Assembly (NCBI GenBank): GCA_001310715.1
Contig: BAXV01000085.1
Coordinates: 1 to 13,442 of the forward strand
Reading direction: 5' to 3'
DNA length: 13,442 nt
From: Pseudovibrio sp. JCM 19062
GTDB lineage: Bacteria > Pseudomonadota > Alphaproteobacteria > Rhizobiales > Stappiaceae
Shown: piece after piece, positions 1-13,442 of the stretch
Layout of the letters: each line of letters begins with the position of its first letter
How positions within the stretch are numbered: the stretch's first letter is position 1
The notes under the pieces: model-generated
What the model saw: the letters and a program-made list of their open reading frames with translations, nothing else
Databases searched by the model: none
Told to the model about the DNA's origin: nothing
Translations under genes and position numbers: made by a program

Positions 1-1
1 C

Positions 2-73
2 AAACCCTCCTCCAAGACTGACCCCAAAACAAATCCACCTCCACTCCCAGCTCCGCCTACAACGGATGGCTGA
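2..73 (+). CDS. possible 3' end of a Pro-rich protein (partial)
   Basis: One frame is open from the window edge to a TGA at 71-73. It reads as a Lys/Pro/Thr-rich tail containing NPPPLPAPPTTDG, like the linker or C-terminus of a larger protein entering from the left. Only 23 codons are visible and the other two frames cannot be ruled out on composition, so this may be ordinary C-rich noncoding DNA. No function can be given. Confidence 0.2.
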   Translation, partial: KPSSKTDPKTNPPPLPAPPTTDG

Positions 74-176
74 ACAGAACTAACTTAATATCATGAGTGA
101 TCGCTTGTAGTATTTCACGGTGAGGCTTCGTCGGGGGGCTTGAAGTCGTGAGCTCGTATTCAGTTGGGAACAGTCT

Positions 177-404
177 ATGTCATATCATGCAGTGCTGTTT
201 ATTGCGGCAACCGCGCTTATCGGGATCGGCATTAGCATGCTGGGAAGGTCCGTAAGTAGGGCCTCTCGTTCGCGTAACAGATACCAAAAGCATACGCCAA
301 GCGGTGTTTGGTATCCGGGAGACAGCTATGTGGATAGTGGCAGTTCTGCCGGTTGTGGCGACAGCAGTGGCGATAGCGGAGGAGGTGGTTGTGGTGGTGA
401 ATAA
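177..404 (+). CDS. small membrane-anchored Gly/Cys/Ser-rich protein
   Basis: This 75-residue protein is not assigned to a named family. Residues about 5-23 form one hydrophobic segment (AVLFIAATALIGIGISMLG), followed by a basic stretch (RSVSRASRSRNR) that would stay in the cytoplasm by the positive-inside rule. The last third is a low-complexity tail rich in Gly, Ser and Asp that carries two isolated Cys residues (SAGCGDSS and GGGGCGGE). Similar short proteins with one membrane segment and a Gly/Ser/Cys tail occur as hypothetical proteins in other alphaproteobacteria. The ATG at 177 has a modest upstream GGGAA, 8 nt away. The antisense strand is also open here, but it gives a His/Thr-rich protein with no organisation, so the plus frame is preferred. 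It stands alone, with no terminator seen on its 3' side. Confidence 0.5.
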   Translation: MSYHAVLFIAATALIGIGISMLGRSVSRASRSRNRYQKHTPSGVWYPGDSYVDSGSSAGCGDSSGDSGGGGCGGE

Positions 405-525
405 CCCCAACCATCCGAGAGGTCTCGGTCTAAAGCGCTTCAGTGAGTGAGAAACCACCTTTGTCTTATCTGCTTTGGTTCCGCAACATCACAAAGAAGC
501 GTAGGCCAACCAACAAGCACAAAAC

Positions 526-553
526 AAAAAAAAGCGACCACCAAGGCCGCTTT
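526..553 (-). terminator. Rho-independent terminator of the phnA-like gene
   Basis: Read on the minus strand, a 9-bp stem (AAAGCGGCC with GGTCGCTTT, one G-U pair, 5-nt loop) is followed by a run of eight T. It lies 28 nt after the stop codon of the gene ending at 581. The position and U-tract fit an intrinsic terminator for that gene. Confidence 0.8.
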
Positions 554-580
554 CTGTCGTTCGGGTGCTTTCACCCACCC

Positions 581-1159
581 TCAGGATTTCTTCACAAACT
601 CCGTCAGGATAACAATGCGCTGGTCGTTGACGCGGCCTTCGATGTGCTCGGCGTTGTCTTGCACCAAAGTGATGTTGCGCACGGCTGTTCCGCGCTTGGC
701 GGTAAAGCCTGCGCCTTTGACCTTGAGGTCTTTGACGAGCGTAACGGTGTCGCCAGCAGAAAGCACAGCGCCGTGTGTGTCTTTGTGCACGATAGCATCT
801 TCATCATCTGCTGCTGCTACGCCGGATTGAGCCCACGTCAGCGTTTCCTCATCCAGATACAGCGTATCCAGCAGATCCCGCGCCCACGCTTCACCAGAAA
901 GGCGGCCCAGCATACGCCATGCGGTTACCTGTACAGCTGGCTCAGTGCTCCATGCGCTTTCATTCAGGCAGCGCCAGTGGTTCACATCCAGCTCAGCCTC
1001 GCTCTCCATCTGAGCAGCACAGGTCGCGCAGGCCAGAATGGATTTATCCGCACTGCCATCGCTATCCGGACCAACGGCTACAGCAGTAAGTTTCTCTGTC
1101 GCACCGCAAAGCTCGCATTTGTCTTCCGCGCGGCTGCGCAGGTCATTCTCAAGGGACAT
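581..1159 (-). CDS. yjdM: PhnA/YjdM-family zinc-ribbon protein
   Basis: The 192-residue protein has the two-part plan of the PhnA/YjdM family. The N-terminal part is a zinc ribbon with two CxxC knuckles (C15/C18 and C44/C47), and the C-terminal PhnA domain (about 125-192) contains DTHGAVLSAGDTVTLVKDL and the family-typical VKGAG turn. E. coli YjdM is about 110 residues; here a roughly 60-residue helical insert with several Trp separates the two parts, as in longer proteobacterial versions. The old name PhnA suggests phosphonate use, but YjdM is not part of the C-P lyase operon and its biochemical role is unclear. The start ATG at 1159 sits just after a TAAAGG-type sequence within a 14-bp palindrome. 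LepA lies upstream on the same strand, but a terminator separates them, so this is probably its own transcription unit. Confidence 0.85.
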   Translation of the reverse strand: MSLENDLRSRAEDKCELCGATEKLTAVAVGPDSDGSADKSILACATCAAQMESEAELDVNHWRCLNESAWSTEPAVQVTAWRMLGRLSGEAWARDLLDTLYLDEETLTWAQSGVAAADDEDAIVHKDTHGAVLSAGDTVTLVKDLKVKGAGFTAKRGTAVRNITLVQDNAEHIEGRVNDQRIVILTEFVKKS

Positions 1160-1161
1160 GG

Positions 1162-1175
1162 CTAAAGGCCTTTAG
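1162..1175. repeat. 14-bp perfect palindrome over the phnA-like ribosome-binding region
   Basis: CTAAAGGCCTTTAG is fully self-complementary and ends 2 nt before the start codon at 1159. The AAAGG within it is the only Shine-Dalgarno-like sequence nearby. It could be an operator or a small hairpin that hides the ribosome-binding site. Chance is also possible for a site of this length. Confidence 0.4.
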
Positions 1176-1186
1176 ATCGTTGTTTC

Positions 1187-1214
1187 ACGAAAAAGGCGAC
1201 CAGAGGCCGCCTTT
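1187..1214 (-). terminator. Rho-independent terminator downstream of lepA
   Basis: On the minus strand AAAGGCGGCC and GGTCGCCTTT form a 10-bp stem with one G-U pair around a 3-nt loop, followed by a short T-run. It lies about 130 nt after the restored lepA stop and before the phnA-like start. The stem sequence closely resembles the terminator at 526-553. Confidence 0.65.
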
Positions 1215-1300
1215 GAATTCTTTGCCTGTGAGGGCTGGTTGCTGCTTTACTTGCCCGCTCGACGGCGCGGTGCGCCTTACTCTCGCGTGCCTTCGCACCT

Positions 1301-1338
1301 GCAAACGACAATTAGTCGTTTGCTTTGCTTACGCAAAC
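1301..1338. repeat. 9-bp inverted repeat with an alternative overlapping hairpin
   Basis: GCAAACGAC and GTCGTTTGC (1301-1323) are perfect 9-bp arms around AATTA. The right arm also contains GTTTGC, which can pair instead with GCAAAC at 1333-1338. It lies immediately after the lepA stop. It may help end or stabilise the lepA mRNA, but there is no U-tract. Confidence 0.4.
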
Positions 1339-1344
1339 CGGTGC

Positions 1345-3149
1345 TCAGTCATCCATCTTCAGCGCTTGAATGAAGCTTCCTGAGGGATCTCAACCTTACC
1401 GAACTGGCGCATCTTCTTCTTACCCGCCTTCTGCTTATCCAGCAGCTTGCGTTTACGGGAAGCGTCACCGCCGTAACATTTCGCGGTCACATCCTTACGC
1501 AGGGCAGAAAGCGTCTCACGCGCAATCACGCGGCCACCAAGTGCTGCCTGAATCGGAATCTTGAACATGTGCCGAGGGATCAACTCTTTCAGAACCTCAC
1601 ACATCGCACGCCCGCGTTTATCTGCCTGCGAACGGTGAACCAGCACGGAGAGCGCATCAACCGGCTCATCATTTACCAGAATAGACATCTTGGCCAAATC
1701 ACCGGCACGGTATTCGCTGATGGTGTAATCAAACGACGCGTAGCCTTTAGAGATGGATTTTAGGCGGTCGTAGAAATCAAAGACCACTTCGTTGAGGGGC
1801 AAGTCATAAGTGACCATCGCACGAGACCCAACGTAGGAAAGGTCAACCTGCACACCGCGGCGATCCTGACACAGCTTCAAGATAGCACCCAGATATTCAT
1901 CCGGTGTCATAATATTCGCGCGGATCCAAGGTTCACGGATCTCTTTGATCTTCACAACATCCGGCATATCAGCAGGGTTGTGCATTTCAAACTGAGAGCC
2001 GTCCGTCATCTCCATCTCATAAACAACAGAGGGTGCTGTTGCGATGAGGTCCAGATTGAACTCACGGGACAGACGTTCCTGAACGATCTCAAGGTGCAGC
2101 AGACCAAGGAAACCACAGCGGAAACCAAACCCAAGCGCAGCCGATGTTTCCATCTCATAAGAGAAAGACGCATCATTAAGGCGCAGCTTGCCCATGGCAG
2201 AGCGTAGATCTTCAAAGTCGTTGGCATCAACCGGGAACAGACCACAGAACACAACAGGCTGAGCTGGTTTAAAGCCCGGCAGCGCTTCCGTGCAGCCTTT
2301 TTTTATCCGTGGTGATGGTGTCACCTACACGGGTATCAGCAACCTCTTTGATGGAAGCTGTCAGCACGCCAATCTCACCCGGTCCAAGACGGTCCGTCGC
2401 CACAAACGCTGGGGTCATCACACCAACGCGGTCAACCGGATACACAGCGCCAGTGCCCATCATCTTGATGGAGTCGCCTTTTTTCAGCTCACCATCAATA
2501 ATGCGAACCAGAACCATCACGCCAAGGTAAGTGTCGTACCAGCTGTCCACCAACATGGCCTTCAACGGGCCATCCGGATTGCCTTTGGGGGCAGGAAGTT
2601 GTTTGACGATTGCTTCCAAAACATCAGGAATACCAAGCCCGGTCTTCGCTGAAATCATCACCGAGTCAGCGGTATCAAGGCCGATCACATCCTCGATCTG
2701 CTCTTTGATGCGATCCGGCTCCGCAGCAGGCAGGTCAACCTTATTGAGAACGGTCACGATATCGTGGTCGTTGTCAATCGCCTGATACACGTTCGCAAGC
2801 GTCTGCGCTTCCACACCTTGGGAGGCATCAACCACCAGAAGGGAGCCTTCCACCGCAGCAAGGGAGCGAGAAACTTCATAGGCAAAGTCCACGTGACCTG
2901 GGGTATCGATCAGGTTCAGCGTGTACTCTTCACCGTCGTCTGCCTTATAAATCAGGCGAACGGTTTGAGCCTTAATGGTAATGCCGCGCTCCTTCTCGAT
3001 ATCCATGGAATCGAGAACCTGCTCCGTCATCTCACGATCCGTGAGAGTGCCGGTAGACTGGATGAGGCGATCGGCCAGGGTGGACTTACCGTGTCGATGT
3101 GCGCGACAATCGAGAAATTGCGAATATTGGACAAAGTTTTGGTCGTCAT
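1345..3149 (-). CDS. lepA: elongation factor 4 (LepA), reading frame broken by three single-base indels
   Basis: LepA/EF4 is a ribosome-bound GTPase that acts during translation or ribosome assembly. The N-terminal GTPase motifs are present: AHID(H)[25 protein letters not shown] and SAKTG. The LepA-specific C-terminal domain follows, with [17 protein letters not shown] and the [22 protein letters not shown] signature. Three positions break the frame. One base is missing near 3093 inside the P-loop, so the motif reads IDTVS instead of IDHGKS. One extra A/T lies in the run at 2299-2305 (a DKKG codon series with seven A instead of six). One base is missing near 1373, after which the usual ending FIQALKMDD reappears in the other frame. 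Correcting them gives about 601 residues, the normal LepA length. The start [13 protein letters not shown] at 3149 matches the family; the longer TTG start at 3159 is an artefact of the first shift. Gene decay is unlikely because the protein is otherwise perfectly conserved. Confidence 0.95.
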
Positions 3150-3165
3150 GGGCGCTCAATTACCA

Positions 3166-3189
3166 CTGCTTTGCTCTATGGCAAAGCAG
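3166..3189 (-). promoter_or_regulatory. 9-bp inverted repeat in the lepA leader
   Basis: CTGCTTTGC and GCAAAGCAG are perfect arms around a 6-nt loop, 16 nt before the lepA start at 3149. It may be a leader hairpin or an operator. No clear Shine-Dalgarno is visible between it and the start other than a weak GAG. Confidence 0.4.
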
Positions 3190-3523
3190 ATAATAACCAC
3201 CCACGCGCTTTTTTTACTGTTTTCCAGCCAATAAAGTGAGGAGCAACCCACTTCACCTCGGGCTTAAGGAATGTTCCGGCTAAAAATTGTACAACCTCCA
3301 GAGGTGACTGAGTCCGGAGAATCCTGCAATAAACTCAAGTGTCTGCCACCAGTGCCCTCTTGAGGGGCACTGCCAAATATGACAGTTCTGAAGGAAGCAG
3401 CAGCCTACATTGAAAGAATGCATGTTGGTTTTCAAAGGAGGGTGCGCGAGAAGTGTTTGTCTGAGGTCGTGCAACCAGCACCGCTAAGATGCTGGCGACC
3501 TCAGGAGTTTTAGAGGGACTTTC
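3190..3523. other. gene-free region between lepA and the acetyltransferase, with strong hairpins
   Basis: No convincing reading frame is seen on either strand. The region must hold the divergent promoters for lepA and the acetyltransferase gene. It contains at least two good stem-loops: 3351-3371 (AGTGCCC with GGGCACT plus a wobble pair) and the long structure at 3461-3504. An untranslated RNA or long leader is possible, but no known RNA family was recognised. Confidence 0.5.
3461..3504 (+). promoter_or_regulatory. long stem-loop in the acetyltransferase leader
   Basis: CTGAGGTCG (3461-3469) pairs with CGACCTCAG (3496-3504), and inside it CCAGCA (3475-3480) pairs with TGCTGG (3490-3495). This makes a 15-bp stem with one 5-nt bulge and a 9-nt loop. 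It is followed by GAGTTTTA and ends 19 nt before the start codon at 3524. It could be an attenuator, a 5' stabiliser or a terminator of a leader transcript. Confidence 0.5.
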
Positions 3524-4051
3524 ATGAAACTGCGTCACGCAACCAAATCTGATATTCCGGCTATTCTGGAGATCCACAATGATGCAGTCAAAACTCTGGC
3601 TGCGATCTGGACCGATAATCTGGAAACGCTGGAAGATCGACAGAACTGGTTCGACAATCGGCTTGCAGACGGCTTGCCAGTGATTGTGGCTGAAGATGAC
3701 AGTGGTGCGGTTCTGGGGTACGGCAGTTACGGTCCGTTCCGTGAAAAGTCCGGCTATAACAAAACCATGGAACATTCCGTCTACATAACGCCGCAGTCAC
3801 GTGGAAACGGCGCAGGCTCTGCACTACTGGAAGAATTGATCAAACTGGCAAGGCAGGGCGGCTACCACGTGCTTGTCGGAGCAATCGATAGCGAAAACAA
3901 AGGCTCAATCGGCTTGCACGAGCGCTATGGCTTCAAAGTCACCGGAGAACTCCCCCAGGTCGGCTTCAAATTCGGCCGCTGGCTCGACCTGACCCTGATG
4001 ACACTCATCCTCAACAACGATCCCGCTCCCGAAGCTTACGTGCACGACTGA
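3524..4051 (+). CDS. GNAT N-acetyltransferase, phosphinothricin/methionine-sulfoximine type
   Basis: The 175-residue protein is a single GNAT domain of the Pat/Bar/MddA kind. Such enzymes transfer acetyl from acetyl-CoA to the amino group of amino-acid analogues such as phosphinothricin, methionine sulfoximine or methionine sulfone. Visible landmarks in order are the N-terminal RHATKSDIPAILEIHNDAV, the substrate-loop motif AIWTDNLETLEDRQNWF, the EHSVYITPQSRGNG segment holding the acetyl-CoA pyrophosphate loop (RGNGAG), the LHERYGF motif B, and the ending KFGRWLDL, which is typical of this subfamily. The ATG has an AGAGGGA Shine-Dalgarno 6 nt upstream. The gene is intact and sits alone on the plus strand between lepA and a convergent broken gene. 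The substrate cannot be decided from sequence. Confidence 0.9.
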   Translation: MKLRHATKSDIPAILEIHNDAVKTLAAIWTDNLETLEDRQNWFDNRLADGLPVIVAEDDSGAVLGYGSYGPFREKSGYNKTMEHSVYITPQSRGNGAGSALLEELIKLARQGGYHVLVGAIDSENKGSIGLHERYGFKVTGELPQVGFKFGRWLDLTLMTLILNNDPAPEAYVHD

Positions 4052-4078
4052 ATAAAAAGGGAGCGCCTCCGCTCCCTT
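4052..4078. terminator. shared terminator hairpin between convergent genes
   Basis: AAGGGAGCG and CGCTCCCTT form a 9-bp perfect stem with loop CCTC, starting 6 nt after the acetyltransferase stop codon. The T-run lies on the minus-strand reading (CTTTTTATT), so it is a good terminator for the minus-strand gene ending at 4110. On the plus strand it lacks a clear U-tract and may terminate more weakly. Confidence 0.75.
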
Positions 4079-4109
4079 CATGTCTTCTTGAATGAGAAAC
4101 CAGTTCACC

Positions 4110-4464
4110 CTATGGCCAGGTAAAGTAGAAGGTCAGATTCTTCGAGACCTGCACGTAGAACGCATTGTGCCCTGCCTTTTCATCGAAAAAGCGCCCCTTC
4201 TCATTGGTGTAAGTTAGGTCTGCAATCAGGCATTCCAGAAAATTCCCAAAAGTGGCATCATCACTTACTGCCCTGCGCATTTGGAGGACCAGAAAACCCA
4301 AAGAATAGGTTTTTGAAGCCCGCGTGTGCGGCGAGTTTTTCGATGTCTTCGAGAACGCCGATGAAATGAAAGGGCTTCACATTATGAATGCTCAGAGTGC
4401 CCCCGCAGATTCTCCGCTGATACTTTGAAAATCTGTGAAGCTTTGTAGTGCCATCTGGTGCCAC
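4110..4464 (-). pseudogene. broken gene of unknown function (two overlapping frames)
   Basis: Two natural-looking protein segments lie in different frames. The upstream one contains GFVVAPDGTTKLHRFSKYQ and later KPFHFIGVLEDIEKLAAHA, and ends at a TGA near 4260. The downstream one contains LECLIADLTYTNEKGRFF and ends NLTFYFTWP at 4110. A single inserted base near 4262 would join them as ...AQGSKSDDATFGNFL... A good minus-strand terminator lies just beyond 4110, which supports a transcribed gene. The upstream frame is open without ATG to about 4508, running into the end of the glutathione S-transferase gene, so the true 5' end may be missing. The GTG at 4464 is only a formal start and lies within an inverted repeat. 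The family was not recognised. It may be a sequencing-error split or a truncated remnant. Confidence 0.5.
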
Positions 4465-4472
4465 TACAAAGC
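4440..4472. repeat. 11-bp inverted repeat after the glutathione S-transferase gene
   Basis: GCTTTGTAGTG (4440-4450) and CACTACAAAGC (4462-4472) are perfect arms around an 11-nt centre. They lie 15 nt beyond the stop codon of the gene ending at 4487. There is no U-tract on either strand, so it is not a standard intrinsic terminator, but it may protect or end the mRNA. Confidence 0.5.
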
Positions 4473-4486
4473 CTGTGGGTTCGCGG

Positions 4487-5191
4487 TTAGGATACCTTAT
4501 CGAAGTTCATTTCGGTTTTAGGCAACCAATCCAAGATGGCTGCTTTGAAGCTTGGTCGCTGCATAATCGACTTTTTCCAAGCCTCTAGGTTTGGGTAGTT
4601 TTCAAACGGGTACTTTGCGGCCTTTAGAATGACCAATTGCGGTATCCACGCAATGTCCGCCAAGGAAAACGAGTTACCCGCCAACCATGCGTTATTTTCA
4701 AGCCTTTTGTTCATTTGGGCAAAACAGCTGTCAATGACGGCTTCCGCCTCTTTAACTTGCTCGCTGGTTATGCCGTCCATAGAGGAGAAACGTTCGTGGA
4801 AAGCTAGAAGTTCTTTGTCAAACGTCTGCCTTTGGCGATACCACTCCATCTCTTCCTCAGACTTCTTCATCGAAGTCAAAAAGCCGATGTTGCCATACAT
4901 GTAAGTTTTGATTGAGATATGGTTGTCGCGGGCAAGATGCATCCACTCGTACATCTCTCCAGTCTCAGAAGAGGAAGAGGGCCGCAGAGAATTGGGAACA
5001 TATTTTTTATCGAGATAGTCCACGATATCGGTTGAATCTATAATCACCCAACCATCATCAACCAGTGTAGGCACGACAGCATTAGGATTGATACTAATGT
5101 ATTCGTCTGTCAGATGCTCACCTTTCATAATGTCCAATAAGTGACTGGCCCATGGAAGACGTTTTTCTTCCAAAGTGAGGCGTACTCTCAT
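4487..5191 (-). CDS. glutathione S-transferase family protein, start codon unclear
   Basis: The protein has the two GST domains. The thioredoxin-like N-terminal domain contains INPNAVVPTLVDDG and the glutathione-binding IIDSTDIVDYLD. The all-helical C-terminal domain contains AWLAGNSFSLADIAWIP and ends with the typical NLEAWKKSIMQRPSFKAA. From the ATG at 5191 it has 234 residues, but this start would omit the first beta strand and the catalytic region. The same frame continues upstream as LHLYHAGFSNCAM, exactly the missing N-terminus including a candidate active-site Cys (codon 5195-5197). It stays open to a TGA at 5264-5266 and contains no ATG, GTG or TTG. Either an indel hides the true start or the start was lost. 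Base composition looks more AT-rich than the neighbours. The physiological substrate is unknown. Confidence 0.85.
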   Translation of the reverse strand: MRVRLTLEEKRLPWASHLLDIMKGEHLTDEYISINPNAVVPTLVDDGWVIIDSTDIVDYLDKKYVPNSLRPSSSSETGEMYEWMHLARDNHISIKTYMYGNIGFLTSMKKSEEEMEWYRQRQTFDKELLAFHERFSSMDGITSEQVKEAEAVIDSCFAQMNKRLENNAWLAGNSFSLADIAWIPQLVILKAAKYPFENYPNLEAWKKSIMQRPSFKAAILDWLPKTEMNFDKVS

Positions 5192-5596
5192 GGCGCAATT
5201 AGAAAATCCCGCATGATATAGATGTAATCCGTGTAGATGTACTACGTCCTTGTTTTTTTGGAGTCACTATACCCATTGTCATCCCGCCCATTTTGAAAGT
5301 TAATACAACGATTGATGCAAATATTGCTTTCCACTTGGGGAAATAAATTCGCGAACGGATATCTAGAACTTTCCTGTCGCAATTTTATTTCGGAAAAACG
5401 GGATTATGTATCAATTGGTCATATTCGGCTTCACCGGTACATATGGATACATCATTGTGTAGTACGACAAGGAAATTGGCACAGGTTCTCTCGAGCAAAG
5501 CCGGTGCTTTGATTATGATTTTGGGAGAGCTATCGTTATTCGGCGGCACAAAGTGCCTCCGACTTAGTTGCTTCAGAGCACTACGACCTAACCAAA
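5192..5596. other. AT-richer stretch with no supported gene
   Basis: The first 40 bases encode the missing N-terminus of the glutathione S-transferase. They contain an 8-bp direct repeat TAGATGTA (5219-5226 and 5234-5241, 15-bp period). The remainder has only short, featureless reading frames on both strands and looks lower in GC than flanking genes. A small hairpin (GGCAC/GTGCC) lies near 5550, downstream of the endopeptidase gene, without a U-tract. Promoters for the glutathione S-transferase must be here, but none stands out. Confidence 0.5.
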
Positions 5597-6583
5597 CTAC
5601 TCCGTCCTCAATACAGCCGCGCAGCTATTAGGCAGGTCGGCGACGGTTAAAGGTGGCTTCGGAGCAGGCGGTTTTGCACCCGGCTTTGGCTCTTTCGGCA
5701 CCCATGGTTCGTCTGAAAGCCAGTAGGTCAACTCACTCCCGCAACCATCTCCCGCTGGAGGAGGGGCTTGATCCCGGCATTCTTTGCTATCTGCCGGGCA
5801 GGTCATGCGCACGTGGAAATGGTAGTGGTGGCCCCACCATGGCCGCACCTTGCGCAGCCAGTCGCGGTCTCCGGTCTCGAACTCACAAAGCGCCTTCTTG
5901 ATGGTCGGGCTCACGAAGATACGCGCAACACCGTCATCCTGCGCAGCACGGCGGATCAGCTTTGCGTGGGCATCGGTCCAACGCTTCGGGTCAACGCTAC
6001 GGTCCGCCCCCGGCTTGCTCAGGTCTTCCTTGAGCATGGAGATCGCGCTCTCTGTCTCGCGCTGCTTGGAGCTGAACCGATAGTCCGGCATTTGCCGCAG
6101 CCAGATGTCGGCATCCAGCCCGATCTGATGGGAGGCGTGACCGGTCAGCATCGGCCCGCCACGCGGCTGCGAAAGGTCACCAACCAGCAGGCCGTTCCAC
6201 CCCAAGTCAGGAGCGTCATCAGCCAGTCGCTTCAGAAAATCAATCAGAGTAGGGTGTCCCCAGTTGCGGTTGCGTGACAGGCGCATCACCTGCCAGTTTT
6301 CACCATCATGGGGAATCGCAACGGCCCCGGCAACGCAGCCCTTTGCATAACTGCCAAAGGAAAGCGGTTCATCATTACTCGGTGTTTCGGCGTGCCCGAA
6401 GTGAAACTTGGCAGCACCCGGAAACTCCGGAAGCTGCCGTAATGCGTCGCGATAATCTTCCTCGGCCAAGGGAGGTTTCGTGTCAGGAAGAGGTACCGCG
6501 TAGGCACCAGCAGAAAGCATACTCACCATAAGTCCGCCAGCCAAAACGGCGGTTTTACGCTGATGACCTCTCAATCCCAACAT
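5597..6583 (-). CDS. mepA: penicillin-insensitive murein endopeptidase (MepA, peptidase M74)
   Basis: The 328-residue protein is a periplasmic zinc endopeptidase that cleaves D-Ala-meso-diaminopimelate cross-links in peptidoglycan and is not inhibited by penicillin. Residues 1-29 are a signal peptide (basic start, hydrophobic core, AYA cleavage motif). The LAS-type zinc site is complete: G-H149-A-S-H152-Q-I-G-L-D-A-D159, and later W-W-G-H252-H-Y-H255-F-H257. These correspond to the known E. coli MepA active-site histidines and aspartate. FGSYAKGCVAGAV and LSQPRGGPMLTGHASHQIG are also family-typical. The last 40 residues form a Pro/Lys-rich tail. The start ATG has a strong GGAGGG 3 nt upstream, and the frame is undamaged. 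It lies 88 nt after the patatin-like gene on the same strand and could share its transcript. Confidence 0.93.
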   Translation of the reverse strand: MLGLRGHQRKTAVLAGGLMVSMLSAGAYAVPLPDTKPPLAEEDYRDALRQLPEFPGAAKFHFGHAETPSNDEPLSFGSYAKGCVAGAVAIPHDGENWQVMRLSRNRNWGHPTLIDFLKRLADDAPDLGWNGLLVGDLSQPRGGPMLTGHASHQIGLDADIWLRQMPDYRFSSKQRETESAISMLKEDLSKPGADRSVDPKRWTDAHAKLIRRAAQDDGVARIFVSPTIKKALCEFETGDRDWLRKVRPWWGHHYHFHVRMTCPADSKECRDQAPPPAGDGCGSELTYWLSDEPWVPKEPKPGAKPPAPKPPLTVADLPNSCAAVLRTE

Positions 6584-6671
6584 GATCCCTCCAACACACT
6601 CACGGACCTACCGTGATTCACTTTTCTTATTCATCTCAAAAGTTGTAGCAGCGGCGGAAAGATTGTGAAGC

Positions 6672-7715
6672 CTAAAAGCCGGGGCCATCCTGCCTTTCTT
6701 GCATAAGGTCTGCCAGTTTATCCAGTTCGGCATCGTAGGCAGACAGCAGTTCATCCGCAAGATGGTTCAGTTGAAGCGCTTCGCCGGGGCGAACGCTATA
6801 AAGGTCACTTCCCAGATGAGGAAGGTCAGCGGTCAGCCGAATGTACTCGACCCCCGGCATATCTGCGAAAAGCACATCTGCATATTGTCCGGTGGAAGCC
6901 GTCTGGCCGTGCATATAACTGCAAAGCAAAGGCGTGCCTTCTTCCGGCGAGAGCCAGCCACGCGTGCCCCACTGCACAGTCTCTTCAAAGCTATGCTTCT
7001 CCTCAACCGGATTGCCGCTGCCAAGCGACAGGATGATGATGTCCTTTGGGTCCCAGCCATGACGCCGCGCCTCGGTATATGCCGCCAGCACCGGATCATT
7101 CAGGAAGCTTGCCGCATCAATCATGATCTCTTCATCGCCAGTGGTCAGGTTTTCAACGCGCGCTGGTTCAAACCACGATGGCGTAGAGGTCGTCGCCCGT
7201 ACAGCCTGCCAGAAGTAATAGTCATCCTGACCCGTTGTGTTGTTGCCCATGGAAACCACACGGCGGTTTTTCAGATCATACGCCGTCAGCAAAACGGAAG
7301 TCAGACTGCTGGACAGAGCACTCCACCCGATGCGTTGCTTGATAGCCTGCTCAACCGGACGCTCCTGAATGGCTTTATTGAACTGCCGGAAGGGGTGGTA
7401 CAGCGCCCGGTGGACCCAGTGGCGCCGGTTGGTCATGTAAAGTTCACGGGCCTCAATCTCGAAGAAGTCCTGCAAATCATTGAGTGTCATCGCGGATTCA
7501 CCACGCCGCGAGTGGTCCGGATTAGGCGCGGTGAGCCCGGCGGCAATCAGGCCGCCACTGGATGTTCCGCAGATCAGATCGAAATATCGGTGAAGTGGCG
7601 CGGACTTGCCGCGCATGGACAGTTTGGTTTCAAGTCCGCGCAGCAAGCGAACCGGAAGAAGACCGCGTGCTCCACCACCATCAATAGAAAGAATAATGCG
7701 TTTTCTTTTTTTCAT
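6672..7715 (-). CDS. patatin-like phospholipase/lipid acyl hydrolase
   Basis: The 347-residue protein has the patatin fold signatures near its start: the oxyanion loop DGGGARG (residues 12-18) and the nucleophile elbow G50-T-S52-S-G54 with Ser52 as nucleophile. The catalytic-dyad aspartate is D200 in MIDAASFLNDP. Most patatins have DGG or DGA here, so DAA is a variant that keeps the Asp. Enzymes of this family hydrolyse acyl chains from phospholipids or neutral lipids. There is no clear signal peptide, so it is probably cytoplasmic or peripheral to the membrane. The ATG at 7715 begins MKKRKRIILSIDGGG, the usual short lead into the first beta strand; the longer TTG start at 7820 would add 35 unrelated residues. 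It is divergent from the nucleoside-diphosphate-kinase-like gene and upstream of mepA. Confidence 0.9.
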   Translation of the reverse strand: MKKRKRIILSIDGGGARGLLPVRLLRGLETKLSMRGKSAPLHRYFDLICGTSSGGLIAAGLTAPNPDHSRRGESAMTLNDLQDFFEIEARELYMTNRRHWVHRALYHPFRQFNKAIQERPVEQAIKQRIGWSALSSSLTSVLLTAYDLKNRRVVSMGNNTTGQDDYYFWQAVRATTSTPSWFEPARVENLTTGDEEIMIDAASFLNDPVLAAYTEARRHGWDPKDIIILSLGSGNPVEEKHSFEETVQWGTRGWLSPEEGTPLLCSYMHGQTASTGQYADVLFADMPGVEYIRLTADLPHLGSDLYSVRPGEALQLNHLADELLSAYDAELDKLADLMQERQDGPGF

Positions 7716-7985
7716 TGAAGAACCCAGTGCCGTGATCGTGTGTTTTGAATCGTTTTTATTTTTATCGAGTCTGTCCAAAAATGAGGTGAAGAGATGACGC
7801 CTCAAAACGAGGAAACGCAACCGCTTGAGATTGCGGTGAATTAAGGGTTAAGCTGGGTCTGCTGCGAGCAGGTGGATTCCACCCCCACCTCAATTCCGCC
7901 ACCAGCTACCCCTACGGCATCTTGGGGGGCGGCAACATATCAGTGCGGCACGCCTCACGTCTGTCAGTTTAAAGGAACGGTCTCA
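7716..7985. promoter_or_regulatory. divergent intergenic region with a possible 16-codon leader ORF
   Basis: This 270-bp gap must hold promoters for the patatin gene (minus) and the gene at 7986 (plus). An ATG at 7794 with GAGGTGAAGAG directly upstream opens a 16-codon frame ending with TAA at 7842-7844 (MTPQNEETQPLEIAVN). It could be a leader peptide of the plus-strand gene or chance. A C-rich stretch follows at 7873-7920. No convincing promoter boxes were found. Confidence 0.35.
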
Positions 7986-8894
7986 ATGGAACACAACATA
8001 CTCCTTGTGAAGCCAGTCCCGCTTGATCAGGAGCAAATTACCGAAGCGATCTGCGCTGATCTGTTGAAGAACGGGCTGGAAGTTGTGGCCATCAACTCTA
8101 AGCCTCTGAGTGTTGCTGAATTTGAAAAACACTTTATTTGTAAAAGCCTTGCCCATTCCGAATATATGACCAGTGGACCGGTGACCTCGATTTTGTACAA
8201 GGGAGAGTCGGCCACCAGCTTCGGGCGGGCCTATAAGTTCTGGTTCCGAAAACAACACCCGACCGATGAGCTTAGAAACATCCTGCACTCAACGGAGCCG
8301 GGGAATGAATTTGCCACGCAGTTCAAGCTGTTCTTTCCTGACTTGAACATTGCCGACCATCATCAGGTCGCAGATCAAGGCGTCTACTTTGGTGAGTTGA
8401 CCGAGGCACAGCGCAGTGCGTTATCTGGGTTATCGGCTTTCAACCTGATCGCCGCCAATGAAGAAGAAGCGAACTCGCAGCAGTTCAAAAGCATCAGCGA
8501 ATTAGACAATTGCAAATATGTAGGCGTGCGGGGAGATGTTCAGGCAGGCAGTGAAATACTGCGATATCGAAGAAAGCACGAGTTGGGCGCTCCCAACGCA
8601 AAAGAGCTTCGCGTCTTGCTTTTCAAAGAAGAGCAAAATTTTTGGGCAACGATCCCGCAGCTGAAAGAGGCGCACAAGGTTCAGGCCGTGGTGTGCTACA
8701 AGCCGCGCTTCACTCTCCTGCAAACCGAAGAGCTGCGCACAGCAACTCTTGAGAGCAATCTGTTCTGTATTGGCGGGAGCTTTGGAGATGAAGGGCCCGG
8801 CTCAATCAGAGTTTCACAAGAGCTGACGGAGCTTTTTGACAGTTGGTTTGAGTGCAGTCAGCTGGTGCTGGACTTTCCCGCACTACCCACTTGA
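7986..8894 (+). CDS. two-domain protein with an NDK-like N-terminal domain and a C-terminal domain of unknown function
   Basis: Residues 3-120 follow the nucleoside diphosphate kinase fold: NILLVKP with K9, the helix EAICADLLKNGLEVVAI, the signature SGPV (63-66), GESATSFGRA, and L-R97-N-I-L-H101-S-T-E followed by KLFFPDL. H101 aligns with the phospho-accepting histidine of NDK (NxxHGSD). The segment before it is much shorter than in true NDKs, and SD is replaced by TE, so NDK activity is uncertain. Residues about 125-302 were not recognised; they include KYVGVRGDVQAGSEILRYRR, CYKPRFTLLQTEELRTA and CIGGSFGDEGPGSIRVS. The start ATG at 7986 has AAAGGAA 8 nt upstream. The longer GTG start at 7872 adds a Pro-rich, unlikely segment. 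The stop overlaps the convergent sugE stop by 12 bp. NDK proper has about 140 residues, so this 302-residue arrangement is unusual. Confidence 0.8.
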   Translation: MEHNILLVKPVPLDQEQITEAICADLLKNGLEVVAINSKPLSVAEFEKHFICKSLAHSEYMTSGPVTSILYKGESATSFGRAYKFWFRKQHPTDELRNILHSTEPGNEFATQFKLFFPDLNIADHHQVADQGVYFGELTEAQRSALSGLSAFNLIAANEEEANSQQFKSISELDNCKYVGVRGDVQAGSEILRYRRKHELGAPNAKELRVLLFKEEQNFWATIPQLKEAHKVQAVVCYKPRFTLLQTEELRTATLESNLFCIGGSFGDEGPGSIRVSQELTELFDSWFECSQLVLDFPALPT

Positions 8895-9208
8895 AACAAG
8901 CTTCAAGCCGACGATCGCAGTGATCAGCAGGGCTATGAAGAAGATGCGGGCGAAGGTGACCGGTTCTCCAAAGTAGAAGATGCCGACGATGGCGATACCG
9001 GTGGCCCCGATGCCGGTCCACACAGCATAGGCTGTGCCGATTGGGATGCAAGCCATAGCTCTGGTCAGAGAGTAAAGCGACAACAGCGCCGTGATGGCAA
9101 AGGCAACTGTAAAAGGTAATCTGGTAAAGCCCTCAGACATTTTGAGGCAGAGAGCAAAAATGATTTCCAAAAAGCCCGCTACGAAGAGCACGTCCATGCC
9201 ATTGCCAT
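8883..9208 (-). CDS. sugE: SMR-family exporter, SugE/Gdx guanidinium subtype (one-base frameshift near the start)
   Basis: This is a four-helix small multidrug resistance transporter of the inner membrane that works as a dimer and exchanges protons for a small cation. The conserved helix-1 glutamate is in GFLEIIFALCLKMSEGF. IPIGTAYAVWTGIG and the FGEPVTFAR loop match SugE/Gdx, the guanidinium exporters, more closely than EmrE. The last helix reads IALLITAIVGLKL. The frame open at 9197 starts with MDVLF. One base earlier, an ATG at 9208 with AAGGAGG 7 nt upstream gives MAMAWT, the usual SMR beginning, in another frame. Restoring one base near 9191 (GGACGTG to GGACGGTG) joins the two as MAMAWTVLFVAGF, for about 108 residues. 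The earlier open frame up to 9356 is leader DNA. Confidence 0.9.
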
Positions 9209-9211
9209 TCA

Positions 9212-9370
9212 GTTGCCTCCTTGCGCAACGTTTGTTGCCTGCTTCCAGAAACGACTGAAAGGACTGTGGTCCCCACTTCTCGGTGACCACCAAAATACTG
9301 TTTGAATGTCCCGGTGGCATATCAGGACCCATCAAAATTAGGTTCATTTGGAGCAAAACCCCTTTCAGTC
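9212..9370 (-). promoter_or_regulatory. structured leader candidate of sugE
   Basis: GACTGAAAGG (9253-9262) and CCTTTCAGTC (9361-9370) are perfect 10-bp inverted arms separated by 98 nt. A second stem, GTGGTC/GACCAC (9266-9271, 9285-9290), nests inside. Next to the start codon, minus-strand GTTGC (9229-9225) can pair either with upstream GCAAC (9238-9234) or with GCAAC (9216-9212), which touches the AAGGAGG site. This switch-like layout suits a leader RNA. SugE/Gdx genes are often under guanidine riboswitches, but the consensus of those classes was not recognised here. Confidence 0.4.
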
Positions 9371-9378
9371 CTTGTAAG

Positions 9379-9393
9379 ATTTACTGAGTAAAT
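9379..9393. promoter_or_regulatory. 15-bp palindrome upstream of sugE (operator candidate)
   Basis: ATTTACT-G-AGTAAAT is a perfect inverted repeat with 7-bp arms around one base. It lies just outside the outer stem of the candidate leader, where a promoter for sugE would be expected. Size and symmetry fit a dimeric repressor site. No regulator gene is adjacent. Confidence 0.4.
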
Positions 9394-9557
9394 TTAAGGG
9401 GGATTGATTAAAACTTGCTACATGCTTCGCCGGACCCGAAGGCAACCTCCAACGGCCCGTAGGTTTCTGACCTGATACGCTGCTCGTGCAAGCGGAGTAA
9501 CTTTAGCGCTGCCAACACCGCCAGAACGAACAGCCCGCCATTACCGAACGCGCCCCG

Positions 9558-9848
9558 TTAATAGCCGTAGTCGTAATAGTCGGGATAATAATATCCGTAG
9601 TCCCGGCGATCTCTGTACGGTTCACGATAAGCTCTCTCTTGCCGCTTTATCTGCTTGCGTACGAACTTATTCCGTTCCTTTTCGAACTTGCGATAGGCTT
9701 TTTCTTGCTTCTTGAAAGCCTTTTCCTGCTGCTTGAAATACTTTTTGTGATGCTTGTCCGCATACGCAACGCTTCCGAAGGATACAGTTGAAAGCGCTAC
9801 AGCAGCAGCCAGTCCAACTTGAAGTATTAACCTCTTGGCATTCCTCAT
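9558..9848 (-). CDS. secreted highly charged small protein, paralogue A
   Basis: The 96-residue protein starts with a clear signal peptide (MRNAKRLILQVGLAAAVALS, cleavage likely after SVAYA, about residue 30). The mature part is a run of Lys, Arg, Gln and Glu in a roughly seven-residue rhythm (FKQQEKA, FKKQEKA, YRKFEKE), predicted to be a long charged helix. It ends in a Tyr-rich tail (DYGYYYPDYYDYGY). No family was recognised. The ATG at 9848 follows TCACTGGAGCAC, with GGAG 9 nt upstream. The same sequence precedes paralogue B, which has an equal total length and a similar signal peptide. It is probably periplasmic or extracellular; what the basic and Tyr-rich part binds is unknown. Confidence 0.75.
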   Translation of the reverse strand: MRNAKRLILQVGLAAAVALSTVSFGSVAYADKHHKKYFKQQEKAFKKQEKAYRKFEKERNKFVRKQIKRQERAYREPYRDRRDYGYYYPDYYDYGY

Positions 9849-10216
9849 GATTATGTGCTCCAGTGACGTTTGGTTATTCGTGTCACTATGGAGCAGTAAC
9901 CGAGCAGACTTATGGCACAGCACGGCAATTTGATGCGCTGTGTTCTGTTTGGAATCCTAATGAGTGTAATGCCATGTGCAAAGCGCAAGTAAGCAGCGGG
10001 GATAGCGCTCTTTTGTTGCAAGAGTTTAGAAAATTAGGAGGGAAAGAGAGTGGGAAAAAGCTATGCAGATAACTCAGGTTGCCCGCCATCGCGGGCGAAA
10101 ATCGTGGATCACTCGAACCAGTAGTCTATGACAGTGCTTTCATTGTGCTTCACAAAAAGCTGAGTGAAAGCACTGTCAAATGAGCAGGTCATGCCGACCT
10201 GATGCGTACCAACGCA
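9849..10216. other. intergenic region between the two secreted paralogues
   Basis: No supported gene lies here. A plus-strand frame at 9863-10072 has no ribosome-binding site and covers the promoter side of paralogue A. The stretch contains a GC hairpin at 10081-10096 (GCCCGC, CATC, GCGGGC) and the 14-bp inverted repeat at 10129-10178. Neither has a U-tract on either strand. The promoter of paralogue A should be in the left part. Confidence 0.45.
10129..10178. repeat. 14-bp perfect inverted repeat with an inner mini-hairpin
   Basis: TGACAGTGCTTTCA (10129-10142) and TGAAAGCACTGTCA (10165-10178) are exact reverse complements. The 22-nt centre contains TTGTG-CTT-CACAA, a second small stem. It lies 39 bp downstream of the paralogue B stop codon. 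Without a U-tract it is not a standard terminator. It could be a mobile palindromic repeat unit or an mRNA 3' stabiliser. Confidence 0.65.
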
Positions 10217-10507
10217 TTAGTAGCGGCGACCAGGAGGACCCCTGCGGTCAAAATGCCGTGGATGAGCGCCAGGCCTGTATAGGCGGCGGTTATCGTGGTG
10301 GTTCCGGTATGCGTGCCTGCGGTCGTACCTGTAGTCACGTCGATCCCGATAGCCTCTTCGGTCCCCGTCAATCGCTCTCTCTGCTTGGTCGAGAATGATA
10401 TTGCCAAGAGGATTGGCCGCATACGCAACACTGCCGATTCCGATAGCTGGCAGTGCTAATGCTGCAGACAGAACGAGTTGCAGCACGAGTTTCCTGATAT
10501 TTTTCAT
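10217..10507 (-). CDS. secreted Arg/Tyr/His-rich small protein, paralogue B
   Basis: Also 96 residues, with a signal peptide closely matching paralogue A (MKNIRKLVLQLVLSAALALP, then GSVAYA before the likely cut). Both genes even share the 13-nt stretch GTTGCGTATGCGG at that site. The mature part begins NPLGNIILDQAERAI and continues as an Arg/Tyr/Asp/His-rich chain (RDRRDYRYDRRHAYRN) that ends RRGPPGRRY. It looks disordered and strongly basic. The start ATG at 10507 follows TCACTGGAGCGC, as in paralogue A. The signal and leader are conserved while the mature part has diverged, which suggests duplication followed by change of the exported portion. Function unknown. Confidence 0.75.
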   Translation of the reverse strand: MKNIRKLVLQLVLSAALALPAIGIGSVAYAANPLGNIILDQAERAIDGDRRGYRDRRDYRYDRRHAYRNHHDNRRLYRPGAHPRHFDRRGPPGRRY

Positions 10508-10652
10508 AGTGCGCTCCAGTGATAATAGGTATTATCCCGATCACCTTAGGTTAGCTTGCTGTCAAACATGTGGCACACTTATCTTGCTGACAGACTTATT
10601 ATCTCATTAGAAATGGCAGAAAAACGCAAATTATGAGGGGAAATGGGCGGCA

Positions 10653-10679
10653 ATCAGGCTTCATTGAGAGAAGCCTGAT
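10653..10679 (-). terminator. hairpin just after the alpha/beta hydrolase gene
   Basis: ATCAGGCTTC and GAAGCCTGAT are perfect 10-bp arms around a 7-nt loop, 12 nt past the hydrolase stop codon. A U-tract is missing (the minus strand continues TGCCGCCC), so termination would need help. The position still makes it the likely 3' end of that transcript. Confidence 0.55.
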
Positions 10680-10691
10680 CACGAGAGCAAA

Positions 10692-11479
10692 TTAGCGCTG
10701 GGCCAGTTCCGCCACAGCCGCAATCATGCGGTCCAGATCTTCTGGACGCGACAGACGGTGGTCGCCGTCTTTCACCAATGTCAGCACCACATCGTCATGG
10801 GCCATGCCTTCCACAATGCGCAAGGCATGCTGCCACGGCACGGCATCATCTTTCTGGCCTTGCAGAATAATGGTCTTGCAGCCGGTGACGATCGGATCGC
10901 CAAGCAGGAGGTTCTTTCTACCATCCTCGATCAGCTTACGAGTGATGATGTACGGGCTGTCGTCATATTCAGATGGACGCTCGAAGCGGCCTTTCTCCAT
11001 GATCTCCTGCTTCATCTCATCGGTAAACTCATGCTTCCACATCAGCTCCTCGGTAAAGTCAGGTGCCGGTGCAATCAACACCATGCCGGATAGAGAGCCT
11101 TCGATCTTCTCAGAAGCTTCATGCAGCGCTTTGGCCAGCAGCAGCGCCATCCAGCCGCCCATGGAAGAGCCAACAACAATAGTCGGACCTTTGCAGAACT
11201 GTTTGAACACAGCAACCGCTTCTTCCAGCCAAAGGGAGATGGTGCCATCAGCAAACTCACCACCGGATTCCCCGTGACCGGAATAATCCATGCGCGTGTA
11301 GGTCAGGCCTGTTGTTTCTGCCCACTCGGCAAGCACTTCTGCTTGGTGCCAAGCATGTCGGATTTGAAGCCAGACAGCCACAGGATACCCGGCGCACCGC
11401 GCTCATCATGACGCACTGCGATTTGTCGTGCACTGTCGCCTTTGCCAACGCTGATGAATTGGGGTAAGTCAGCACTCAT
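10692..11479 (-). CDS. alpha/beta hydrolase (serine hydrolase), one-base frameshift
   Basis: After restoring one base near 11342 (ACCAAGCAG to ACCAAGGCAG) the protein is about 262 residues. It begins MSADLPQFISVGKGDSARQI and passes through ILWLSGFKSDMLGTKAEVL. It then has YSGHGESGG, the nucleophile elbow GSSMGG (Ser about 106), the acid-residue region GQKDDAVPW and the histidine in DGDHRLSR. These are the Ser-Asp-His triad positions of a cytoplasmic esterase/peptidase-like alpha/beta hydrolase similar to ABHD10-type enzymes. The substrate is unknown. The ATG at 11479 has GGAGG 6 nt upstream. In related alphaproteobacteria a hydrolase of this type is, as I recall, often next to infC; here the glycosyltransferase lies between. 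Most of the protein lies in the frame 10692-11381 and the N-terminus in another frame. Confidence 0.9.
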
Positions 11480-11586
11480 TCATAACCTCCAAACGCTTTA
11501 TCGGCTTATCGTTGCCGGCAATTGTCTGGAAACCTGATTACAGCCTCGTCACCATTGCCGCCTGTTATTCGGGGGAGCATAGTTGG

Positions 11587-12782
11587 ATGATGCGCAAAAA
11601 ACACAGAGAAATATCCAAAGTGCCAACCATTTTGCAAATTGTCCCCGACCTTCAAACCGGCGGAGCGAGCGCACCACACTGGATGTTGCTGAGGCAATCG
11701 TGAATGCAGGCTGGAAAAGCCTTGTGATTTCACAAGGCGGACGCATGGTGCCCGAGTTGGAAACAACCGGAGCGGTGCACTTTGAAATGCCGGTCAAATC
11801 CAAGAACCCTTGGACTATGTGGCGCAACTCTTATCTGATCGAACGTATCTGCAAGGAACATGACGTTGATCTGGTTCACGCCCGATCCCGCGCTCCGGCG
11901 TGGTCTGCCTTGTGGCTGCACGCCGTCTGAGCATTCCTTTTGTCACCACCTATCACGGCATTTACAGGGAAACCAACAGGTTCAAGGCGTTCTACAATTC
12001 CTCCATGACCCGCGCCGATAAAGTGATCGCGAACTCTAAATTCACCGCTGATTTGGTGGAACGGCGAGATCCGCGCACCAAAGGCAAAACCTCGGTGATC
12101 TACCGTGGCCCGGATATAGACTCTTATGATCGCGACAATATCAGTGATGAGCGCGTCTCGGACCTGCGCGCCGCTGGGGCGTTTCCGACAAGCGCCGCGT
12201 GGTGATGAACCTTGCGCGCCTGACTGAATGGAAAGGTCAGCGCGTCTTGATTGAGGCGACCCGCCAGCTTGTTCAGCGCGGCGGCTATGATGATGTGCTT
12301 GTGGTTTTAGCCGGGGATGATCAGGCCGCGAGACCTACCGCCAATCTCTTGAGCTCCAGATTGAGGAATCTGAGTTGGTCGGCAACGTCCGCATTGTTGG
12401 TCACTGCTCGGATGTTCCCGCAGCGCTCGCAATCGCAGATGCTTCTGTTGTCGCCTCCATTGAGGCCGAGGCCTTTGGCCGTGCCGCTGTCGAAGCGCAG
12501 GCTGCAGGCGTGCCGGTGATCGTCTCCAATATTGGCGCGGTGCCGGAGACCGTACTCGTCCCGCCTGTGGTGCAAGATGAAGAGCGCACGGGCTGGCACT
12601 TTGAGAATGGCAACGTGGAAGAACTTGCGGATCTGATGGCTCAGGCATTGGATCTGAGTGAAGAGGAGCGCGCAAAACTTACCAAGCGCGCCCATGACCA
12701 TGTGGAACGCTCGTTCACCAAACAGGCCATGTGTGCCGCGACGCTTGATGTTTACCGGGAGTTGTTACCAACAGAGATCTAG
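11587..12782 (+). CDS. GT4 glycosyltransferase, reading frame broken by four one-base deletions
   Basis: Joined across frames this is a GT-B glycosyltransferase of family 4 with about 399 residues. The N-terminal domain has TILQIVPDLQTGGAERTTLD, VDLVHARSRAPAW and FVTTYHGIY. The C-terminal domain has VVMNLARLTEWKGQ, the nucleotide-sugar region VGHCSDVPAALAIAD, and the EX7E motif in EAEAFGRAAVEAQAAGVPVI. Such enzymes build lipopolysaccharide core or capsule sugars; the donor and acceptor cannot be read from sequence. One base is missing near 11666 (GGAGCGAG), 11912 (CCTTGTGG), 12173 (GCCGCTGG) and 12324 (CAGGCCGC). Each restoration gives family-like sequence across the joint. The start is the ATG at 11587 with GGGGGAG 9 nt upstream. 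The gene is divergent from the hydrolase and precedes infC by 190 bp. Four hits in one gene could be decay, but infC and lepA show the same kind of change. Confidence 0.88.
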
Positions 12783-12821
12783 CTGGTTGCATATGTCGCG
12801 CAAGAACCAGCAAAACTAGTG

Positions 12822-12850
12822 TTGACTTACGGGACATTTTTCCTGATTTT
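12822..12850 (+). promoter_or_regulatory. possible promoter of infC
   Basis: TTGACT (12822-12827) is followed after 17 nt by GATTTT (12845-12850), a good -35 box with a weak -10 box. It lies in the only gap upstream of infC and would give a leader of about 115 nt. Confidence 0.35.
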
Positions 12851-12901
12851 AGCAAAGCAGCAATAATGATGCCCCTGCAATATGTTTCTCGACTTGACGA
12901 A

Positions 12902-12953
12902 ACTGCCGGAACGAGTCATTGAGCTGTAGTCAAATATTCGTAAGTTCGGCAGT
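12902..12953 (+). promoter_or_regulatory. leader stem-loop just upstream of the infC ribosome-binding site
   Basis: ACTGCCG (12902-12908) plus AAC (12910-12912) pair with GTT plus CGGCAGT (12944-12953). This is a 10-bp stem with one bulged G enclosing 31 nt. The stem ends 4 nt before the AAGAGGAG Shine-Dalgarno. Its placement suggests a role in infC translation control or in stacking next to the ribosome-binding site. Confidence 0.45.
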
Positions 12954-12972
12954 CTAAAGAGGAGATACTCAC

Positions 12973-13442
12973 ATTCGCCGTCCGTTTCGCGCACCGCCAC
13001 CCACCAAGGAAGGGCCGCGCACCAATAAAGAGATTCGCGTTCGCGAAGTGCAGCTGATTAACACCGAAGGTGACAACCTCGGTCCAACTCCAATCGAAGA
13101 AGCCCTCGCTATGGCGGTGGATCAAGGTTTGGATCTGGTCGAGATTTCCCCGAACAGTCAGCCACCTGTTTGTAAAATTCTGGATTATGGTCGCTACAAG
13201 TACCAAGCCCAGAAAAAAGCTGCAGAAGCGCGCAAAAAAACAAAAGATCGTTGAGATCAAAGAGATCAAGATGCGCCCGAACATCGACACTCATGACTAT
13301 GAAGTGAAGATGCGGAACATGCTGCGCTTCTTTGAAGATGGTGATAAAGTGAAGGTGACACTTCGCTTCCGTGGCCGTGAAATGGCCCACCAGGATCTCG
13401 GAATGAAATTACTTCTGAAGGTTAAAGCTGAGACTGCCGAAG
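12973..13442 (+). CDS. infC: translation initiation factor IF-3 (partial, ATT start, one-base frameshift)
   Basis: IF-3 binds the 30S subunit, prevents early 50S joining and checks initiator tRNA and start codon. The N-domain runs from [20 protein letters not shown] through [11 protein letters not shown] and [13 protein letters not shown]. The linker AEARKK is followed, after removing one extra A in the seven-A run at 13234-13240, by [20 protein letters not shown] and [13 protein letters not shown] of the C-domain. About 156 of roughly 175-180 residues are inside the window. No ATG, GTG or TTG lies between the in-frame TAA at 12955 and a GTG at codon 26. The family-conserved RRPF is preceded by ATT at 12973, with AAGAGGAG 9 nt upstream, so ATT is the start. 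E. coli infC also starts with AUU, through which IF-3 limits its own synthesis; the same control is inferred here. Confidence 0.92.

Follow-up and report, generated by a model that had tools for sequence, protein, structure and literature searches.

Introduction

Nucleoside diphosphate kinases (NDKs) are strongly conserved enzymes that usually consist of a single domain. In excerpts of PMC7554756, their Kpn loop and alpha-A/alpha-2 hairpin are described as a nucleotide clamp, the hairpin bearing the base-stacking Phe58, and it is speculated that bulky substrates could reach the histidine once this hairpin opens. For the second kind of domain considered here, excerpts of two reports are relevant: RNase AM activity is abolished by a change of E72 and likewise by changes of D255/H257 (PMC9410882), and a structural role is reported for a PHP domain with lost metal ligands (PMC3666897). 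Here we describe a gene on a 13,442 nt stretch of DNA from Pseudovibrio sp. JCM 19062 (contig BAXV01000085.1, positions 1 to 13,442, referred to in full as the window) whose product joins an NDK-like domain retaining the catalytic histidine to a second domain modelled as PHP-like. The NDK-like domain with its histidine and the attached second domain had been noticed in a sequence-only reading, and the arrangement is confirmed here in a family of proteins.

An NDK-like domain with an incomplete nucleotide clamp

The gene is an uninterrupted frame with an ATG start (Table 1). Protein searches of a set of roughly 5.8 billion sequences (clustered at 90 %), which detect only relatives with short exact words in common, yielded a family of 15 proteins, the query (P0001, the window protein) included: 11 in the first round, then P0012 and P0013, and then P0056 and P0057. 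As P0011 breaks off inside the C-terminal domain and P0057 comprises a C-terminal fragment only, the NDK-like part is present in 14 members, and conservation was counted over an alignment of these 14, with M. tuberculosis numbering for the NDK counterparts. The window protein matches only NDK in Pfam (residues 2–118) at 27.3 bits against a curated cut-off of 27, and scores 24.3 bits, far under the cut-off of 155, with the NCBIfam NDK equivalog PRK00668. The name 'nucleoside-diphosphate kinase', given to several members in public records, is probably misleading.

In both structure prediction and fold search the N-terminal 120 residues model as an NDK fold, as the sequence-only reading had supposed, and the histidine that it singled out is conserved throughout. 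H101, which corresponds to the catalytic histidine, its asparagine N98 and the charged residues K9, R81 and R88 of the phosphate site are unchanged in 14/14, as is the N-x-x-H motif. The clamp is incomplete in all 14 members, which lack 10 residues of the Kpn loop and five of the hairpin; the alignment columns that hold the base-stacking Phe and the phosphate-contacting Thr of NDKs are missing as well.

A C-terminal domain predicted to be PHP-like

The predicted structure of residues 127–291 and fold searches, including Foldseek and VIA-align, point to a shortened PHP-like barrel with no insertion domain. The best VIA-align matches, 3e0f and 9etk, are among the PDB entries related in sequence to E. 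coli RNase AM. Because the comparison of sequence profiles, set out below, was not significant, it is on the predicted fold that the assignment to PHP is based. The domain had been presented as unrecognised and potentially new; it is new as a partner of an NDK, and judging from the models it is probably not a new fold. The proposed combination, an NDK joined to a PHP domain that lacks metal, was not encountered in the searches made here, and among the open-licence PMC papers listed on NDK-PHP fusions and NDK domain fusions no title or abstract opening described the protein; Pseudovibrio with NDK gave no paper.

The usual metal ligands appear to be missing. Their positions were read in a register set by hand, of which only residues 222–266 fall in the best, non-significant profile path. 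In this register, the counterpart of RNase AM E72 is R or K and that of D255 is F, each in 14/14, and histidine is missing at both HxH positions in 13/13. An earlier hand register, with HxH at residues 124/126, was replaced by this one, which fits the VIA-align range; the former gives HxH in two members. The PHP metal-ligand strings TDH, GSD and AHP were found in none of the C-terminal parts of the 15 members, and HxH was found in three of them.

Two further conserved features were seen. C176, C237 and C261 of P0001 are invariant in 12 aligned rows (C176 also in 11 rows of another alignment) and form a possible redox or metal site, and the motif H-Q-x-x-D-Q-G-V in the interdomain linker (P0001 residues 126–133) is invariant in 13 aligned rows.

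Table 1. Features of the NDK-like/PHP-like gene, in positions of the window
Feature	Position	Strand	Basis or remark
Probable ribosome binding site AAGGA	7972..7976	+	9 nt upstream of ATG; read from sequence
Whole gene, NDK-like and C-terminal PHP-like domain, 302 aa	7986..8894	+	15 family members (query included); purifying selection
NDK-like domain, residues 1–120	7986..8345	+	
K9 codon, counterpart of M. tuberculosis Lys10	8010..8012	+	14/14
F50–Y60, alpha-A/alpha-2 hairpin, shorter than in NDKs by 5 residues, base-stacking Phe columns included	8133..8165	+	alignment
R81–R88, Kpn loop, shorter by 10 residues than in 45/46 NDKs, both arginines kept	8226..8249	+	alignment
H101 codon, counterpart of the catalytic histidine	8286..8288	+	14/14
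Predicted PHP-like barrel, residues 127–291, no insertion domain, apparently no usual metal ligands	8364..8858	+	

Proposed role and alternatives

We tentatively propose, with a probability of a little under 0.4 and on the basis of models and alignments, that the protein is an accessory NDK paralogue in which H101 transfers phosphate to or from a bulky partner and the PHP-like domain is a recognition or structural module. H101 would receive phosphate from a nucleoside triphosphate or from some other phosphodonor, the open cleft would let the phosphate go to, or come from, a protein or a bulky phosphate metabolite, and the PHP-like domain would position this partner and would not be a phosphatase. 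Such a protein would not replace the housekeeping NDK, as a separate canonical NDK is encoded alongside the NDK-like gene in each of the four genomes searched, and these canonical NDKs are 99–100 % identical to one another. A more specific version, in which an NDK fused to a metal-free PHP domain is a clamp-less phosphohistidine transfer protein whose former phosphoesterase module presents the bulky acceptor or donor, is doubtful. A lineage in which the phosphohistidine residues are kept and both nucleotide-holding elements are trimmed offers a natural test of clamp-less machinery and, if the second domain is a metal-free PHP barrel, it would be a case of non-catalytic PHP reuse outside the DNA polymerases.

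A number of observations, on both domains, weigh against this proposal. The counterpart of Tyr50 is Phe and that of Glu128 is Gln, each in 14/14; the KPD aspartate is Val in 3/14, the window protein among them; the predicted local distance difference test score (pLDDT) is <50 at residues 88–99 and 101–106, which are part of the active site; and the P. denitrificans copy, one of five in genomes of the genus that carry the gene, is interrupted by an in-frame stop close to its 3′ end. The protein may instead be an NDK inactive in phosphotransfer that serves as a nucleotide- or phosphate-binding scaffold or sensor, with H101 kept for binding or by history. The precedent is human NME6, which is reported to be inactive: it is a monomer and forms no phosphohistidine, even though its essential residues are retained (excerpts of PMC8597243). 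NDK activity also requires assembly of the monomers, with the Kpn loop contributing to oligomer contacts (excerpts of PMC7554756), and this loop is short in all 14 members, in which the two substitutions just listed are also universal. Against inactivity stands the invariance of K9, R81, R88, N98 and H101 in a family with identities down to 47 %, and although inactivity is a real possibility, our analysis would place phosphotransfer only a little ahead of it. That the protein is a true second nucleoside diphosphate kinase, with its clamp rebuilt by the C-terminal domain or another subunit and its nucleotide preference altered, is improbable. The phosphate-site residues are mostly kept, and viral NDKs with shorter Kpn loops do bind nucleotides with a changed preference (excerpts of PMC7554756), but the deletions in the window family, of 10 plus five residues, exceed the viral ones and remove the base-stacking Phe and phosphate-contacting Thr columns. 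Together with the Tyr50 to Phe and Glu128 to Gln replacements, the two deletions argue against ordinary nucleoside diphosphate kinase activity.

For the second domain, Foldseek gave no match at E 0.001 and its top row was an unrelated ribosome-assembly chain, and PF02811 was not matched in 12 members at E values up to 10. A link to PHP domains by sequence had to be rejected: when 12 C-terminal domains were compared by hhalign with 30 RNase AM-family sequences (E. coli and 29/30 loci, L061 being left out as short), the probability was 0.4 % (not significant), 31/200 column-shuffled controls matched the score, and the reversed control reached 15.7 vs 16.1. Global mode aligned two columns, addition of two members gave 0.3 % with the register unchanged, and in a post hoc half-domain test 13/200 controls did as well. 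The C-terminal domain could be an unrelated alpha/beta fold that resembles the barrel and is not derived from PHP, which we consider unlikely and which is compatible with the other alternatives. In the hand register, moreover, some ligand positions are acidic: the GSDxH histidine is replaced by E in 10, by D in three and by G in one of the 14 members, all 14 have E or D in place of the histidine in the strand that follows G-x-E, and at the TDH aspartate two members have D and two have E. Given these positions, and HxH at 124–126 in two members, the C-terminal domain might still bind metal weakly.

Distribution and selection

The NDK-like/PHP-like protein is a rare bacterial protein. Source organisms are available for nine members, namely seven Pseudovibrio, one Rhizobiaceae metagenome-assembled genome and one Agrobacterium rhizogenes. 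Full-length matches were found in 5/16 genomes of the genus, in 5/151 related genomes (three more match the NDK part only) and in 2/397 genomes of the order, where 22 other weak matches stop by position 129. A C-terminal profile found 5/87 genomes in the taxonomic family and 2/385 in the class, the latter being G001 and G431; the weak match in G431 (36 positions, E 0.007, in-frame stop) was dismissed as chance.

Purifying selection acts on both halves of the gene. The ratios of non-synonymous to synonymous substitution rates (dN/dS) for the two halves are 0.059 and 0.102 between the window and P. japonicus, and 0.116 and 0.206 between P. ascidiaceicola and Pseudovibrio sp. Ad37. All finite ratios are ≤0.21, many other pairs being saturated. 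The six named Pseudovibrio members besides P. japonicus share 56–61 % identity with the window protein, and the lowest identity over a member's length is 47 % (P0056). With these low ratios, and with the identities of 56–61 % lying below those of the canonical NDKs and of most matches to the neighbouring patatin gene, the gene is maintained, yet fast-evolving for the genus.

Genomic neighbourhood

The NDK-like gene is immediately preceded by an SDR gene of the same orientation in four loci: L002 (P. ascidiaceicola), L003 (Pseudovibrio sp. Ad37), L004 (P. denitrificans) and L117 (from G012). The end of the SDR gene and the start of the NDK-like gene are separated by 34, 34, 13 and 8 nt, respectively. 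The SDR gene of L003 is at 9274–9966, the assignment being by Pfam adh_short. No SDR match was found in the available stretches of the window and of the P. japonicus locus (L001). In G006, the flanks are as in L003 and L004 and both genes are absent, leaving about 120 bp vs about 1.7 kb in L004, and G007, G008 and G009 have no SDR in the stretch examined and no family member in the whole genome. Hence, the two genes seem to form a module that may be present or absent at a single site, though the NDK-like gene also occurs alone.

The divergent neighbour in the window (6672–7820, − strand) encodes a patatin-like phospholipase with strong matches in 12/16 genomes of the genus, nine sharing 81–95 % and the remaining three 52–55 % identity. 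In the four SDR-type loci other genes separate patatin from the NDK-like gene. A role in a defence system was considered and rejected: P0001 has no PADLOC match, no cyclase search having been made, and the patatin scores 94.9 bits with NCBIfam CBASS_lipase, under the cut-off of 200. A phage or plasmid origin was likewise rejected. None of 28 pattern matches in viral contigs was confirmed as a relative (C-terminal profile only), phages yielded no relative of the query P0012, PHROGs yielded none for P0001 and P0012, and plasmids yielded no relative with P0056 and one NDK-only match (E 3e-3) with P0001.

Downstream lies a convergent SMR transporter gene (Pfam), whose 3′ end overlaps that of the NDK-like gene by 12 nt (8883–8894). 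Elsewhere in the window, a frame at 1359–3159 (− strand), which we take to be LepA-like, is split into two overlapping open reading frames where P. japonicus (L001) has one of 601 aa; this is a probable frameshift, perhaps a sequencing error. A presumably glycosyltransferase-like gene at 11583–12782 (+ strand) is broken over three open reading frames, in contrast to a single frame of 399 aa in P. japonicus.

Comparison with known systems

Residues 1–120 share the fold of NDKs (PF00334) and the counterparts of M. tuberculosis Lys10, Arg86, Arg104, Asn114 and His117, whereas the window family differs in having both clamp jaws shortened, Phe for Tyr50, Gln for Glu128 and a second domain. The canonical NDK of the P. 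japonicus genome shares 28 % identity with the NDK-like domain. To our knowledge, human NME6 has no PHP-like domain. It is an NDK relative with an altered Kpn loop and retained active-site residues, but its loop carries an insertion where the window family has a deletion (excerpts of PMC8597243). The Mimivirus and Tupanvirus NDKs, which are among the fold matches of the NDK-like domain, also have a short Kpn loop; however, their hairpin is of normal length, they comprise about 130 residues, and the Tupanvirus protein P0025 has 12 residues between the arginines compared with six in the window family. Unlike RNase AM (YciV, the product of rnm in E. coli) and the related 3e0f, the C-terminal domain lacks an insertion domain and, in the hand register, has its metal ligands replaced. 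The PHP domain of E. coli DNA polymerase III alpha differs in being longer and fused to a polymerase.
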